64,000 nucleotides of DNA from Nocardioides coralli (GTDB lineage: Bacteria; Actinomycetota; Actinomycetes; Propionibacteriales; Nocardioidaceae), in the NCBI RefSeq assembly GCF_019880385.1, contig NZ_CP082273.1, positions 434,001 to 498,000 on the forward strand, read 5' to 3'. The translations under genes and the position numbers were made by a program. The number at the start of each line of letters is the position of its first letter. The stretch's first letter is position 1. The notes below the pieces were generated by a model. The model saw only the letters and a program-made list of their open reading frames with translations, was not told where the DNA came from and searched no databases. This document shows positions 3,198-62,764 of the stretch, in pieces.

Positions 3198-4415
3198 TCA
3201 GGCGAAGAGCTTCTGCAGGCGGGTGATCCCCTCGACGAGGTCGTCGTCCCCCAGGGCGTAGGAGAGGCGGAGGTAGCCGGGGGAGCCGAACGCCTCGCCG
3301 GGCACCACGGCCACCTCGACGCGGTCCAGGACGAACTCGGCCAGCTCGGCGGAGGTCGAGAGGCGGACGCCGTCGTGCTCACGCCCCAGCAGGTCCTTGA
3401 CCGACGGGTAGGCGTAGAACGCGCCCTGCGGCGTCGGGCAGACGACCCCCTCGATCTCGTTGAGCATCGAGACGATGGTCCGACGGCGCCGGTCGAAGGC
3501 ATCCTTCATCTCGTTGACGGCCGACAGGTCGCCGGACACGGCCGCGATCGCCGCCCGCTGGGCGACGTTGGCGACGTTGGAGGTGGCGTGCGACTGCAGG
3601 TTGGTGGCGGCCTTCACGAGGTCGGCCGGGCCGATCATCCAGCCGACGCGCCAGCCGGTCATCGCGTAGGTCTTGGCCACCCCGTTGACGACGACGCAGT
3701 GGTCGGCCAGGTCCGGGCACAGCACCGGCAGCGAGCCCGTGTCGACGTCGTCGTAGACGAGGTGCTCGTAGATCTCGTCCGTGAGCACCCACAGCTGGTG
3801 GTCCTCGACCCAGCGGCCGATCTCGCGGATCTCGTCGCTGGTGTAGACGGCGCCGGTCGGGTTCGAGGGCGAGACGAAGAGCAGCACCTTGGTCCGCTCG
3901 GTGCGCGCGGCCTCGAGCTGGTCGACGGTGACCTTGTAGTCCTGGGTGTCGTCGGCCAGCACCTCCACCGGCACGCCGCCGGCCAACCGGATCGCCTCCG
4001 GGTAGGTGGTCCAGTACGGCGCGGGGACGATGACCTCGTCGCCCGGGTCGAGCATCGCGGCGAAGGCGTCGTAGATCGCGTGCTTGCCGCCGTTGGTGAC
4101 CAGGACCTGGTTGGTCTCGACCTCGTAGCCGCTGTCACGCCGGGTCTTCTCGACGATCGCCTGCTTCAGCTCGGGAAGCCCCCCGGCGGGGGAGTAGCGG
4201 TGGTTGCGGGGGTCGCGGCACGCCTCAACCGCGGCCTCGACGACGTAGTCGGGGGTGGGGAAGTCGGGCTCGCCTGCGCCGAACCCGATCACCGGCCGGC
4301 CCTCTGCCTTCAGCGCCTTGGCCTTGGCGTCCACCTTCAAGGTCGCCGACTCGGCGATGCTGCCGAGCCGCTGCGAGACGCGACGGTCGCGGGGCGAGGA
4401 GGATCCGGTCGTCAT
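3198..4415 (-). CDS. aspC: pyridoxal-phosphate-dependent aspartate aminotransferase (class I/II)
   Basis: Transfers the amino group of aspartate to 2-oxoglutarate, 405 aa. [10 protein letters not shown] near residue 45 binds substrate, [10 protein letters not shown] near 180 is the family core, and [13 protein letters not shown] holds the Schiff-base lysine. The ATG at 4415 is preferred over the longer frame because conserved sequence begins just after it and a TACGAT -10 element ends six bases upstream. It lies upstream of add on the same strand. Together the two genes interrupt the ancestral murB to tRNA-Trp spacing. Confidence 0.92.
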
Positions 4416-4421
4416 GGGGCC

Positions 4422-4427
4422 ATCGTA
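4422..4427 (-). promoter_or_regulatory. -10 element of a probable leaderless promoter for aspC
   Basis: On the minus strand this reads TACGAT and is followed after six bases by the ATG at 4415. No Shine-Dalgarno sequence lies between them, which supports a leaderless transcript. Confidence 0.45.
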
Positions 4428-4548
4428 GGCACGGGAGGCGTTTGGACGCGGGTGAGGATCACCCCGTAGACTCAACCATCGGTGGTTTCTCCCCATGCTT
4501 CGGCATGCCCTGACCCGGGTGGCCCCGGGCCGGGAGTGGACACCGTGG

Positions 4549-4621
4549 AGGGCACTAGCTCAACTGGCAGAGCATCGGTCTCCAAAACCGAAGGTTGGGG
4601 GTTCAAGTCCCTCGTGCCCTG
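4549..4621 (+). tRNA. trpT: tRNA-Trp (anticodon CCA)
   Basis: The 73-base cloverleaf has a perfect seven-pair acceptor stem (AGGGCAC at 4549-4555 with GTGCCCT at 4614-4620) and G discriminator at 4621. The loop CTCCAAA holds anticodon CCA at 4582-4584, and GTTCAAGTC forms the T-loop. The 3' CCA is not encoded (GCA follows). Its position immediately before secE is the classic actinobacterial arrangement. Confidence 0.97.
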
Positions 4622-31032: not shown

Positions 31033-31691
31033 CCGCGGCGGCGACCCGGGCGCTGGTGGTCGACGACCAGGAGCTGGTGCGGGTCGGCTTCCGGATGATC
31101 CTCGAACGCGGGGGTGTGGAGGTCGTCGGGGAGGCGGCCGACGGCCTCGAGGCCGTCGAGGCCGCCGCCACCCTGGCGCCGGACGTGGTGCTCATGGACG
31201 TGCGGATGCCCCGGCTCGACGGCATCGAGGCCACCCGCCGGGTGGTGGCCCACGACCCCGCCGTGCGGGTCGTGGTGCTGACGACGTTCGACCTCGACGA
31301 GTACGTCATGCAGGCCGTGCGGGCGGGCGCCAGCGGCTTCCTGCTCAAGGACATCCCGCCGGCCGACCTGGTGCACGCCGTCGGGGTCGTGGCCCGCGGT
31401 GACGCCCTGCTCGCCCCGGCGCTGACCCGCCGGCTGCTGGAGCGCTTCGCCGAGCAGCCCGAGACGGTCGCCGACCCGCGGGTCGAGGGTCTCAGCGCGC
31501 GCGAGCGCGAGGTGATGCTGGCCGTCGCGTCGGGGCAGTCGAACGCGGAGATCGGCGGTCGGCTCCACCTGAGCGAGGCCACCGTGAAGACCTACGTGTC
31601 GCGGCTGCTGACCAAGCTCGACGTCCGCGACCGGGTGCAGCTGACCGTCCTGGCCTACGAGTCGGGGCTGGTCGTGCCCCGCGGCGGGTGA
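31029..31691 (+). CDS. NarL/LuxR-family response regulator
   Basis: 220 aa. Receiver domain residues ~8-125 with VVDDQELVR at the acidic pocket, phospho-acceptor Asp57 (LMDVRMPRLDG) and the conserved Lys in LLKDIPPADL. The C-terminal LuxR helix-turn-helix (~150-210) reads LSAREREVMLAVASGQSN then LSEATVKTYVSRLLTKL. Coupled to the upstream kinase. The likely target is the divergent membrane protein gene or the kinase operon itself. Confidence 0.94.
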   Translation: MTAAATRALVVDDQELVRVGFRMILERGGVEVVGEAADGLEAVEAAATLAPDVVLMDVRMPRLDGIEATRRVVAHDPAVRVVVLTTFDLDEYVMQAVRAGASGFLLKDIPPADLVHAVGVVARGDALLAPALTRRLLERFAEQPETVADPRVEGLSAREREVMLAVASGQSNAEIGGRLHLSEATVKTYVSRLLTKLDVRDRVQLTVLAYESGLVVPRGG

Positions 31692-60034: not shown

Positions 60035-60310
60035 TCACTCCAGCGACGAGCGCAGGCGCACCAGCATCTCCCCGACCTCGGGGCCCGGGGTCGCCGTGCC
60101 GGCCCGGATGTGCTGCTCGAGCTCCAGGGCGATCTGCGAGCCCTCCGGTCTGCCGTAGGAGCCGAGGGACCCGGCCAGCTTGTGGGCCGCCGTCAGCGCC
60201 TCGTCGTCCGCGCCGTGCCCGTCCGCCCAGGACTCGAGGACGGCGAGGTGGTCGGTCGCCCGGTGGCGGAAGCGCTGCCAGAGCGCCGCGATGATCGCCT
60301 CGTCGTTCAT
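60035..60310 (-). CDS. HPt phosphotransfer protein
   Basis: 91 aa, a single four-helix Hpt domain. AAHKLAGSLGSYG holds the phospho-accepting His43 with the expected small residues around it. The ATG has AGGAG upstream and overlaps the stop of the REC-glycosyltransferase gene (ATGA), so the two are made together, and the receiver of that fusion is the obvious partner. No kinase gene is adjacent. Confidence 0.88.
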   Translation of the reverse strand: MNDEAIIAALWQRFRHRATDHLAVLESWADGHGADDEALTAAHKLAGSLGSYGRPEGSQIALELEQHIRAGTATPGPEVGEMLVRLRSSLE

Positions 60311-62634
60311 GCCGCACTCCTGGTCGGTACCGCTTCCGGGCGTGTGGAGACCTGCCGTGGGGTCACGACCCAACGGCGTTCGCCCGCCAGCTCCTTCAGC
60401 TGGGCGACCCGGGCGATGACGTTCTTGAACTCGGTGTAGAAGAGGGAGGCGACCACCAGGTAGGCCCAGAACCAGGCACGGCGCTGCCGGATCTCGGGTG
60501 CGCCGAGCAGGTAGGCGAACAGCACCTGTCCGGGACCGACCGACAGCGTGAAGATGGTGGTCAGCACGAAGACCGGGATGACCCAGTCGAGCTGCTCCTG
60601 ACCGCCCTCGCGCCAGATCATGAAGGCCACGAGCGGGAACATCTGGATCGACAGCCACGGGTAGATCTCGCGCCAGCCGAGCAGGAAGAAGAGCCCGAGC
60701 TTGTTGCGCAGCGAGAGGTGGGAGGCCTTCCACCCGCGGAGCAGGTGCCGCATCGACACCTGGAACCAGCCCTGGGCCCACCGCATCCGCTGGTGCCACA
60801 GGGCCTTCCACGTCGTCGGCGCCAGCTCGCGGCTGAGCAGCCCCGGGTCGGAGGCGATCCGACGCCCGTTCTGCAGGGCCCGCATGCTCGAGTCGATGTC
60901 CTCGGTGAGCATCCGTCCCTGCATGCGCGCGTGCCGCAGCGCCTGGGTGCGCCAGTAGCCGTTGGAGCCACCGAAGATGCCGAAGCCGTGCAGGCGGGCG
61001 CGGCCCGGGTGGCTGACGGCGTAGATCGCCTCGAACTCGACCGCGACGGTCTGCGCGGTGAGCGTGGTGTCGCCGTTGCGGACGACGCAGTGTCCCTGCA
61101 CGACGTCGTAGCCGTGGGAGAGCCAGCGCCAGGCGCGCTGGAAGGAGCCGGGGTCGGGGTGGTGGTCGGCGTCGAAGACGCCGGTGATCTCGCCGTCGAC
61201 GATCGCCAGGGCGGTGTTGACGTTCTGGGCCTTGGAGGTGCTGCCGTCGACGCGGAAGGGCACGAACCGGTGGTCGCGTCGGGCGAGGTCGGCCAGGCGA
61301 TCCTCGATCGGCATCGGGTGCGGGGTGTTGTAGGCGAGGACGACCTGCAGCCCGCCGGGGTAGTCCAGGGACAGGAAGTGCTCGACGGTGTCCATGACGG
61401 TGGCGGCCTCGTTGGGCAGGTAGGCCGCGATGATGGCCGAGGCTCGCGGTGGGGGACCGGCAGCCTCCCGCGGTGGTCCGGTGGCCCCGAGGGCCAGGAA
61501 GCCCTCGGTCCAGATCAGTGCGGCGGTGACCACCAGCGAGAGCACGACCACCGGGTAGGCGACGCCGACCGGGTCGATGCCGAACCTGTGCAGCAGCAGG
61601 TAGCCGGCGAACGGCACCGCGAGCCCGATCATCAGCGTCACGAGGACCTGCACCGGGGTGGCGAGGTTGACCCGGTCGCGCCGCCCGGCCCGGGTGGCCT
61701 CCACGAAGGCCTGGAGCTCCGGCGACCAGCGGATCGGCATCAGGTCGAGGTGGGCGCTGGCCTGGTCGGCCGCGAGGGCGGCGCGCTCGATCGCCCGGCT
61801 GGGGTCGCGGTCGAGCGGCACGTCGCCGGCTGTCGTCCACCCGGTCACCGGCGTGACGTTGACGTGCTCGTCGTGCACGGTGAACGGGTCGGCGGCGATC
61901 GCCGAGGCGACCTCGGCCAGCCGGCGGGCGGCGTCCTCCGCCGGGGTGTCGGGCAGCACGAGCAGCAGCCCGAGCTCGCCCGATCCCCGACCGGGCAGCA
62001 GACCCGCCAGGTCGAGCGGACCGAGCCTGCCCTGCGCGACCTGTGCCGCCATCCGGACCACGTCCACCAGGCCCTGGCGCCCGAACCTCTCGGCCAGTGC
62101 CTGCTGCTCGGCGAAGTGCAGCACGGCGACCGCGGCCGACCGGAGCCCACCCTCGGAGCGACGCAGCTCCCGCTCGAGCTCGAGGACGATCCGGTCCGCG
62201 GTCAGCACCCCGACCTTGCGCGCCTCGGAAAAACCCGCCACGGACACTGGCGGCCGGTCGATGCGGGTCTGGACACGCGCCACGAGCTCGCCGAGGTCGA
62301 AGGGCTTGCGCACGTAGTCGTCGGCACCGAGCCGCAGCCCGCTCACGACGTGCTCCGGGTCGCTGAGGGTGGTCATCACCACGACGGGGACCGCGCTGGT
62401 CTCCGGGTCGGCGCGGACCTGCTCGAGCAGGCCGAACCCGTCGAGCCGGGGCATCTGGACGTCGGTGACCACGAGGTCGACGGGCGTGGAGCGCAGGTGC
62501 GCGAGCGCCTCGACGCCGTCGCCGGCGAGGAGGACGTGGTGGCCCTTGTCCTCGAGCCCGGCCGCGACGAGCTCCCGGATCATCTCGTCGTCGTCGACGA
62601 CGAGGACCCGGCCGTGGCTGGCCTCGCGCTCCAT
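60307..62634 (-). CDS. fusion: receiver domain, degenerate GGDEF, membrane family-2 glycosyltransferase
   Basis: 775 aa. Receiver (~9-125): VVDDDEMI, phospho-acceptor Asp58 (VVTDVQMP), Lys110. Residues ~150-300 resemble a GGDEF fold (AEQQALAERFGRQGLVDVVR, then VLPDTPAEDAARRLAE), but the GG(D/E)EF signature reads GRGSGELG, so cyclase activity is unlikely. Two transmembrane helices (~322-378) precede a GT2 catalytic domain: TSKAQNVNTAL, FDADHHPDPGSF (DxD), TEDIDSSMRA (base) and QRMRWAQGW (QxxRW), then about four more spans. GT2 enzymes of this shape polymerise and export polysaccharides such as cellulose or hyaluronan. Phosphorylation through the coupled HPt could control synthesis directly. 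Confidence 0.9.
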   Translation of the reverse strand: MEREASHGRVLVVDDDEMIRELVAAGLEDKGHHVLLAGDGVEALAHLRSTPVDLVVTDVQMPRLDGFGLLEQVRADPETSAVPVVVMTTLSDPEHVVSGLRLGADDYVRKPFDLGELVARVQTRIDRPPVSVAGFSEARKVGVLTADRIVLELERELRRSEGGLRSAAVAVLHFAEQQALAERFGRQGLVDVVRMAAQVAQGRLGPLDLAGLLPGRGSGELGLLLVLPDTPAEDAARRLAEVASAIAADPFTVHDEHVNVTPVTGWTTAGDVPLDRDPSRAIERAALAADQASAHLDLMPIRWSPELQAFVEATRAGRRDRVNLATPVQVLVTLMIGLAVPFAGYLLLHRFGIDPVGVAYPVVVLSLVVTAALIWTEGFLALGATGPPREAAGPPPRASAIIAAYLPNEAATVMDTVEHFLSLDYPGGLQVVLAYNTPHPMPIEDRLADLARRDHRFVPFRVDGSTSKAQNVNTALAIVDGEITGVFDADHHPDPGSFQRAWRWLSHGYDVVQGHCVVRNGDTTLTAQTVAVEFEAIYAVSHPGRARLHGFGIFGGSNGYWRTQALRHARMQGRMLTEDIDSSMRALQNGRRIASDPGLLSRELAPTTWKALWHQRMRWAQGWFQVSMRHLLRGWKASHLSLRNKLGLFFLLGWREIYPWLSIQMFPLVAFMIWREGGQEQLDWVIPVFVLTTIFTLSVGPGQVLFAYLLGAPEIRQRRAWFWAYLVVASLFYTEFKNVIARVAQLKELAGERRWVVTPRQVSTRPEAVPTRSAA

Positions 62635-62691
62635 GTCGACAGCGTAGACAGCGTCTTTGCCGTCGCGTGCCGAATCGCGGCATCGCGCCTG

Positions 62692-62764
62692 TGCCCCAGG
62701 TAGGAGTCGAACCTACGACCTTTCGCTTAGGAGGCGGCTGCTCTATCCACTGAGCTACTGGGGC
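62692..62764 (-). tRNA. tRNA-Arg (anticodon CCU)
   Basis: 73-base cloverleaf: acceptor GCCCCAG/CTGGGGC, D-arm GCTC/GAGC, loop CTCCTAA with anticodon CCT, T-arm GTAGG/CCTAC, discriminator A. CCA is not encoded. The anticodon stem GCCGC/GCGAA pairs only in its three lower positions; the top two pairs are G-A and C-A mismatches. Reads AGG codons. Confidence 0.93.

Follow-up and report, generated by a model that had tools for sequence, protein, structure and literature searches.

The window analysed here is a stretch of 64,000 nucleotides from Nocardioides coralli (contig NZ_CP082273.1, positions 434,001 to 498,000). Two overlapping genes on its reverse strand encode a protein that joins a receiver (REC), a degenerate GGDEF domain and a membrane GT2 glycosyltransferase, hereafter the synthase, and a separate small HPt phosphotransfer protein (Table 1). 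The preliminary description, made from the DNA letters, had proposed this layout, and domain search and structure model agree with it. The HPt gene scored well above the Pfam cut-off of 24.6 bits, and an alignment of nine chosen HPts contained 13 invariant columns including H43. Every active-site residue of the window receiver and HPt is intact, and both reading frames are open.

Table 1. Position of the synthase gene, its encoded parts and the HPt gene in the window.
Feature	Position	Strand	Basis
REC - degenerate GGDEF - membrane GT2 synthase gene, 775 aa	60307..62634	-	
Receiver domain, residues 10-122, with D14, D15, D58, T88 and K110	62269..62607	-	
Codon of Asp58, predicted phospho-acceptor	62461..62463	-	
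GGDEF-fold domain, catalytically degenerate, residues 135-313	61696..62232	-	
Long helix out of the GGDEF-fold domain and two N-terminal membrane helices, residues 305-382	61489..61722	-	DSSP of model (helices 305-350, 356-382); hydropathy peaks start at 322 and 351
GT2 catalytic domain, residues 396-671 (SKAQN, DAD, TED, QRMRW)	60622..61449	-	Pfam; motifs; structure match
C-terminal helices, residues 685-749	60388..60582	-	Model secondary structure; structure match
HPt phosphotransfer protein, 91 aa	60035..60310	-	Pfam Hpt, 40.5 bits; overlap with synthase gene, ATGA
Codon of HPt His43, predicted phospho-acceptor	60182..60184	-	

A tRNA-Arg(CCT) gene (62691-62764, reverse strand) precedes the synthase start by 56 bases in the same orientation; the two may share a transcript, or the tRNA may mark an insertion site. 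The only other receiver match within the window (31053-31382, forward strand) reads by eye as a receiver followed by a LuxR/NarL-type HTH. The LCP-like gene of the window was ruled out as a component of the system, as its query matched only one of 80 loci (L026), and there on the strand opposite the synthase.

Domains and conservation of the synthase

The first domain of the window protein has the receiver fold, with the phospho-acceptor aspartate and its acidic pair, the threonine/serine and the lysine, and the second takes the GGDEF fold in the structure model. By E-value, the top Foldseek matches for the model were diguanylate cyclases of the PleD type (REC-REC-GGDEF) and the DgcR type (REC-GGDEF), in which the GGDEF fold follows the receiver as it does here. 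The window family differs from these cyclases in lacking the GGDEF signature (120 of 120 listed members) and in its output, a membrane GT2. The GT2 domain carries the DxD, TED and QxxRW motifs of processive polysaccharide synthases and matched PcManGT, hyaluronan synthase and BcsA in structure; we regard the window enzyme as a putative processive polysaccharide synthase, a polymer being its presumed product. Its C-terminal helices are read as membrane helices by their likeness to BcsA and hyaluronan synthase; a simple hydropathy scan of the synthase marked only 322 and 351 and left the C-terminal helices unmarked. While PgaC/IcaA and BcsA are controlled through PilZ or PgaD and c-di-GMP, the window synthase has a receiver and a GGDEF fold instead, and Pfam matches up to E 1 included no PilZ domain. 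The preliminary description had gone further and set the GGDEF domain in the place of PilZ. This does not hold, because the GGDEF fold is N-terminal and the PilZ domain of BcsA is C-terminal.

The whole-protein search returned 2097 matches, of which the best 120, the window protein included, were used for motif counts. Among these 120, Asp58 was retained in 119 and Lys110 in 117, and SKAQN (with A or S), DAD, TED and QRxRW were present in all, the M of QRMRW being variable. The GG[DE]EF signature, already reported missing from the window protein, occurred in none of the 120, which rules out an active diguanylate cyclase; loss of cyclase activity is predicted for the GGDEF-fold domain of every listed member and not for that of the window protein alone. 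Receiver and GT2 on separate genes, named in the preliminary description as evidence against its reading, were not encountered: all 30 aligned homologues carry both, in a search that admits only proteins of 0.55-1.75 times the query length. In some relatives the REC-GGDEF-like unit is repeated before one GT2, and Pfam found two receivers in five of six scanned proteins of more than 1000 aa. Among the sources of the homologues listed are Geodermatophilus, Blastococcus, Cellulomonas, Kineococcus, Streptomyces and Chloroflexi MAGs, and the REC-GGDEF-GT2 fusion forms an old family. One MAG contig labelled Paracoccaceae (L030) encodes a double-receiver synthase with a kinase and a receiver; Actinobacteria and Chloroflexi labels prevail among the other loci, and this contig is possibly misbinned or transferred.

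The retention of the GGDEF fold in the family could mean that control really resides in this domain, through the binding of c-di-GMP, GTP or some other nucleotide, and that the receiver merely tunes it. It precedes the first membrane helix, and remnants of the fold persist in synthases without a receiver. We nevertheless consider this unlikely, as the usual nucleotide sites look lost: besides the absent signature, at the column matched by hand to the I-site arginine of PleD, only 16 of the 120 listed homologues have Arg, and the RxxD-GG spacing was seen in one.

Relay genes beside related synthases

A scan of the genome collection yielded 180 synthase relatives, and the best 80 were fetched as loci. 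All frames of these loci were searched with an HPt profile grown from the window HPt. An HPt gene on the synthase strand was present near the synthase gene in 13 of the 80; the HPt neighbour noted at the window recurs among homologues. The 13 loci represent about eight lineages: Cellulomonas, Mycolicibacterium, Cryobacterium (five loci), Demequina (two) and four MAGs assigned to Acidimicrobiia, Nitriliruptoraceae, Frankiales and Actinomycetota.

Eleven of these loci share the gene order synthase, a PAS or GAF/PAS histidine kinase (HisKA-HATPase), a single-domain receiver and HPt, and these 11 loci contain all four elements of a four-step phosphorelay operon (kinase, intermediate receiver, HPt and terminal receiver). 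Successive genes of the 11 operons overlap by 4 or 8 bases, with a single exception, a 1-base gap in L026; as the script took the start codon nearest the previous stop, an overlap of exactly 4 bases is partly a matter of choice. The H-box SHELR[ST]PL was found in all 11 operon kinases examined. The two remaining loci are ordered differently: L014 reads synthase, REC, HPt and hybrid kinase, and L025 (the Frankiales MAG) reads acyltransferase, synthase and tandem HPts (4094-4584), followed by the sensor part of a kinase. Pfam was used to check the kinases of L007, L021 and L014, the single receivers of L003, L007 and L026, and the acyltransferases of L003, L017 and L079, and the other operon genes were called with HMMs grown from these loci. 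An acyltransferase-3 gene follows the operon in three of the 13 HPt loci and precedes it in one (L025); on the synthase strand, acyltransferase-3 matches were present in 56 of the 80 loci.

The 11-locus operon would encode a complete His-Asp-His-Asp relay whose last receiver sits on the synthase, given the presumed direction of phosphate flow. The ATGA-coupled pair of the window corresponds to a shortened form of this operon: the synthase with its terminal receiver is followed directly by the HPt, and the kinase and intermediate receiver that separate them in the relatives are absent from the site. These loci strengthen the view, first put forward for the window, that a phosphorelay acts on a polysaccharide synthase: in 11 of them, the genes between synthase and HPt are those for a kinase and a single receiver. 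A class-wide survey covered 394 genomes, of which 16 had the synthase, 7 matched the HPt model and 3 had both. It was rejected as independent evidence, since the HPt model had been built from synthase-linked HPts; moreover, two of the three double matches (G337 and G390) are records of L007 and L008 and the third is the window itself, and G308 is a record of L038.

A histidine kinase core or an HPt lay on the synthase strand within the set distance limits in 18 of the 80 loci. Five of the 80 (L005, L013, L027, L030 and L032) have a same-strand kinase and no same-strand HPt, weak opposite-strand HPt matches in L027 and L030 (24 and 22 bits) being left uncounted. There the kinase alone seems enough, which would suit an HPt that works mainly backwards, draining the synthase receiver or the single receiver and thereby keeping the synthase off or resetting it, with the receiver charged directly by the kinase. 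HPt steps are indeed reversible. Forward relays such as Spo0F/Spo0B, however, have the very arrangement that dominates here, HK-REC-HPt with a separate single receiver, and a mainly backward HPt seems to us quite improbable.

As in the sporulation phosphorelay (KinA-Spo0F-Spo0B-Spo0A) and other HPt relays, the full operon supplies a kinase, a single receiver, a phosphotransferase and a final receiver. While the Spo0-type relay ends on a transcription factor, the operon of the relatives ends on the receiver of a membrane enzyme. In the open-licence literature, no paper on a receiver-GGDEF-GT2 protein or on the surrounding relay operon was found. The earlier remark that no described pathway with this layout was known needs a correction for the output part: one or two receivers fused to a BcsA-like glycosyltransferase (PF13641; MTH_548 type) are already catalogued for three archaeal genera of Methanobacteriaceae in a passage of PMC5847659. 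That passage mentions neither a GGDEF-like domain nor a relay operon for the archaeal fusions, whereas the window synthase has a GGDEF fold. Relay and enzymatic response regulator are thus joined here in a way not seen in the literature searched, although both parts were already known.

Receiver loss and the missing relay steps

Receiver state was compared with relay neighbours in a table of 80 rows, from which L073 (its contig starts inside the gene) was left out and to which the window was added. L018 was coded as not intact (Lys110 replaced by Arg, Asp58 kept), L004 and L031 were kept though they stop no more than about 550 bases past the GT2 domain, and the count leaves aside kinases encoded on the opposite strand (L022, L078) or farther off than the limit allowed (L006). 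The receiver is intact in every one of the 18 rows that have a kinase or HPt neighbour on the synthase strand, the window included, and none of the 49 rows without an intact receiver has such a neighbour. Among the 31 receiver-intact rows, 13 have no counted neighbour, nine of them Chloroflexi MAGs. In L006 a same-strand kinase and receiver lie about 5 kb upstream, past the limit; the Asp-less L078 has a kinase and receivers upstream on the opposite strand, a possible exception hidden by the same-strand rule. On the tree, receiver state changed at least five times and relay neighbours at least seven times, both in a clustered manner, and an independent-pairs test of the two traits found only three supported pairs and was not significant (p = 1).

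Loss of Asp58 in relatives had been named beforehand as evidence against receiver control. The residue is nearly universal in the best 120 homologues listed, as given above; it is lost, or the receiver is absent, in a Streptomyces/Actinomadura clade and several other lineages. Since the aspartate or the whole receiver is missing there, the predicted phosphorylation control can hold only in the receiver-intact branch. The Streptomyces/Actinomadura relatives resemble aspartate-less receivers (ALR) in likewise keeping an Asp-less receiver fold; a term search of the main text of the ALR paper (PMC4395418) found no word beginning 'glycosyl'. Loci L033-L077 (without L044 and L073) and L081 share a conserved two-gene unit of a GT2 with an Asp-less or missing receiver and an acyltransferase-3, under Streptomyces, Actinomadura and Pseudonocardiaceae names. 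Within the genus of the window organism, four synthase relatives (L120-L123) have no receiver, and the contig of L124 ends inside the gene.

The genome of the window organism is a single contig of 3,527,132 bases with two HPt domains only, the second of which lies within a PAS-HisKA-REC-HPt hybrid kinase (C1:3143100-3145928). The best of 24 own matches to the operon kinase of L007 is C1:1064537-1065586 (246 bits, the next 174), and the best of 22 own matches to the operon receiver of L003 is C1:1065616-1065981 (106 bits, the next 60.7). Both belong to one gene pair (G000:C1:1063514-1065990), about 570 kb from the synthase, with the receiver directly behind the kinase in a GTGA overlap. The earlier statement that no kinase is nearby is thus true of the site, and a related kinase-receiver pair exists elsewhere on the chromosome. 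By sequence likeness, this pair is the leading candidate for the kinase and receiver absent from the site, which would then be supplied from a distance. The candidate receiver ranks 28th of 36 by general Pfam receiver score. The candidate kinase has about seven membrane-like stretches, while the same simple scan marked none in the 11 operon kinases examined. The second-best own kinase (C1:1198805-1200394, GAF-PAS-HisKA) has an operon-like layout and no adjoining receiver, and is a candidate as well; six of the 24 own kinase matches, those inside L102-L105, were viewed in context. Own-genome matches to the L003 acyltransferase were weak (40.5 bits at best).

Close relatives of the candidate receiver (1e-30 or better) occurred in five of 57 other genomes, none with a synthase match: three belong to the same genus and have a nearby kinase but nothing that matches HPt, and the other two, from the same order, have an HPt adjoining the receiver. 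In the latter two (L118, L119) the HPt-receiver pair is divergent from a kinase and the synthase is absent; these sets are putative relays of the same type with another output. Proteins of about 195 aa, similar by eye, are encoded at L115:6937-7521(-), L116:4948-5532(-) and L118:9980-10570(+), in two same-genus genomes and one same-order genome that have a kinase and the same single-receiver type near by and no synthase.

The window pair might also be a decaying remnant, its kinase and receiver genes deleted and its own receiver and HPt wired to nothing. The absence of the two genes that lie between synthase and HPt in relatives would fit such decay, as would the four receiver-less synthases of the same genus and the repeated changes of receiver state on the tree. 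Against it stand the intact active sites, the open frames, the ATGA overlap and the related kinase-receiver pair elsewhere in the genome, and we hold decay to be rather improbable. It is highly improbable that the HPt is part of some unrelated relay and just happens to overlap the synthase gene: HPt-receiver pairs without a synthase do occur in L118 and L119, but a same-strand HPt was found in 13 of 80 loci against about 0.4 of 80 expected within 8 kb (assuming the HPt density of this genome, two in 3.53 Mb, elsewhere), and the conservation of the operon disfavours chance.

A proposed relay onto the synthase

We propose, with a probability of roughly 0.65, that the window pair is the output end of a phosphorelay which regulates a cell-surface polysaccharide synthase directly, by acting on the protein itself. 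In the full operon form, a cytosolic signal would act on the soluble PAS or GAF/PAS histidine kinase, which would place phosphate on the single-domain receiver; this would hand it to the HPt at a histidine equivalent to His43 of the window protein, and the HPt to Asp58 of the synthase-fused receiver. Phospho-receivers typically pair up. The change in the receiver would travel along the dead GGDEF domain and the long helix that leaves it, reach the first membrane helix and thereby switch the GT2 site. In the genome of the window organism itself, kinase and single receiver for the pair would be provided from another locus. We infer the direction of phosphate flow, the switch itself and the polymer; the enzyme probably makes an extracellular polysaccharide, which may be O-acylated in loci with an acyltransferase-3 gene close by. 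The broader statement is that actinobacteria share a conserved operon in which a complete His-Asp-His-Asp phosphorelay ends directly on a membrane polysaccharide synthase, with the dead GGDEF domain as a mechanical transmitter; we regard it as evenly balanced between right and wrong.

Among bacterial polymer synthases, the best-known ones are under the control of c-di-GMP or are regulated through gene expression. If the proposed relay exists, sensing would be connected to a surface polymer without transcription and without c-di-GMP, and the synthase polypeptide itself would be the terminal response regulator of the relay. Such a role would also explain the survival of the GGDEF fold without its chemistry. 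Relatives with an intact receiver and relay genes, set against those with an Asp-less receiver and none, form natural pairs for testing it, and the Streptomyces-like relatives would then have made the system independent of phosphorylation.
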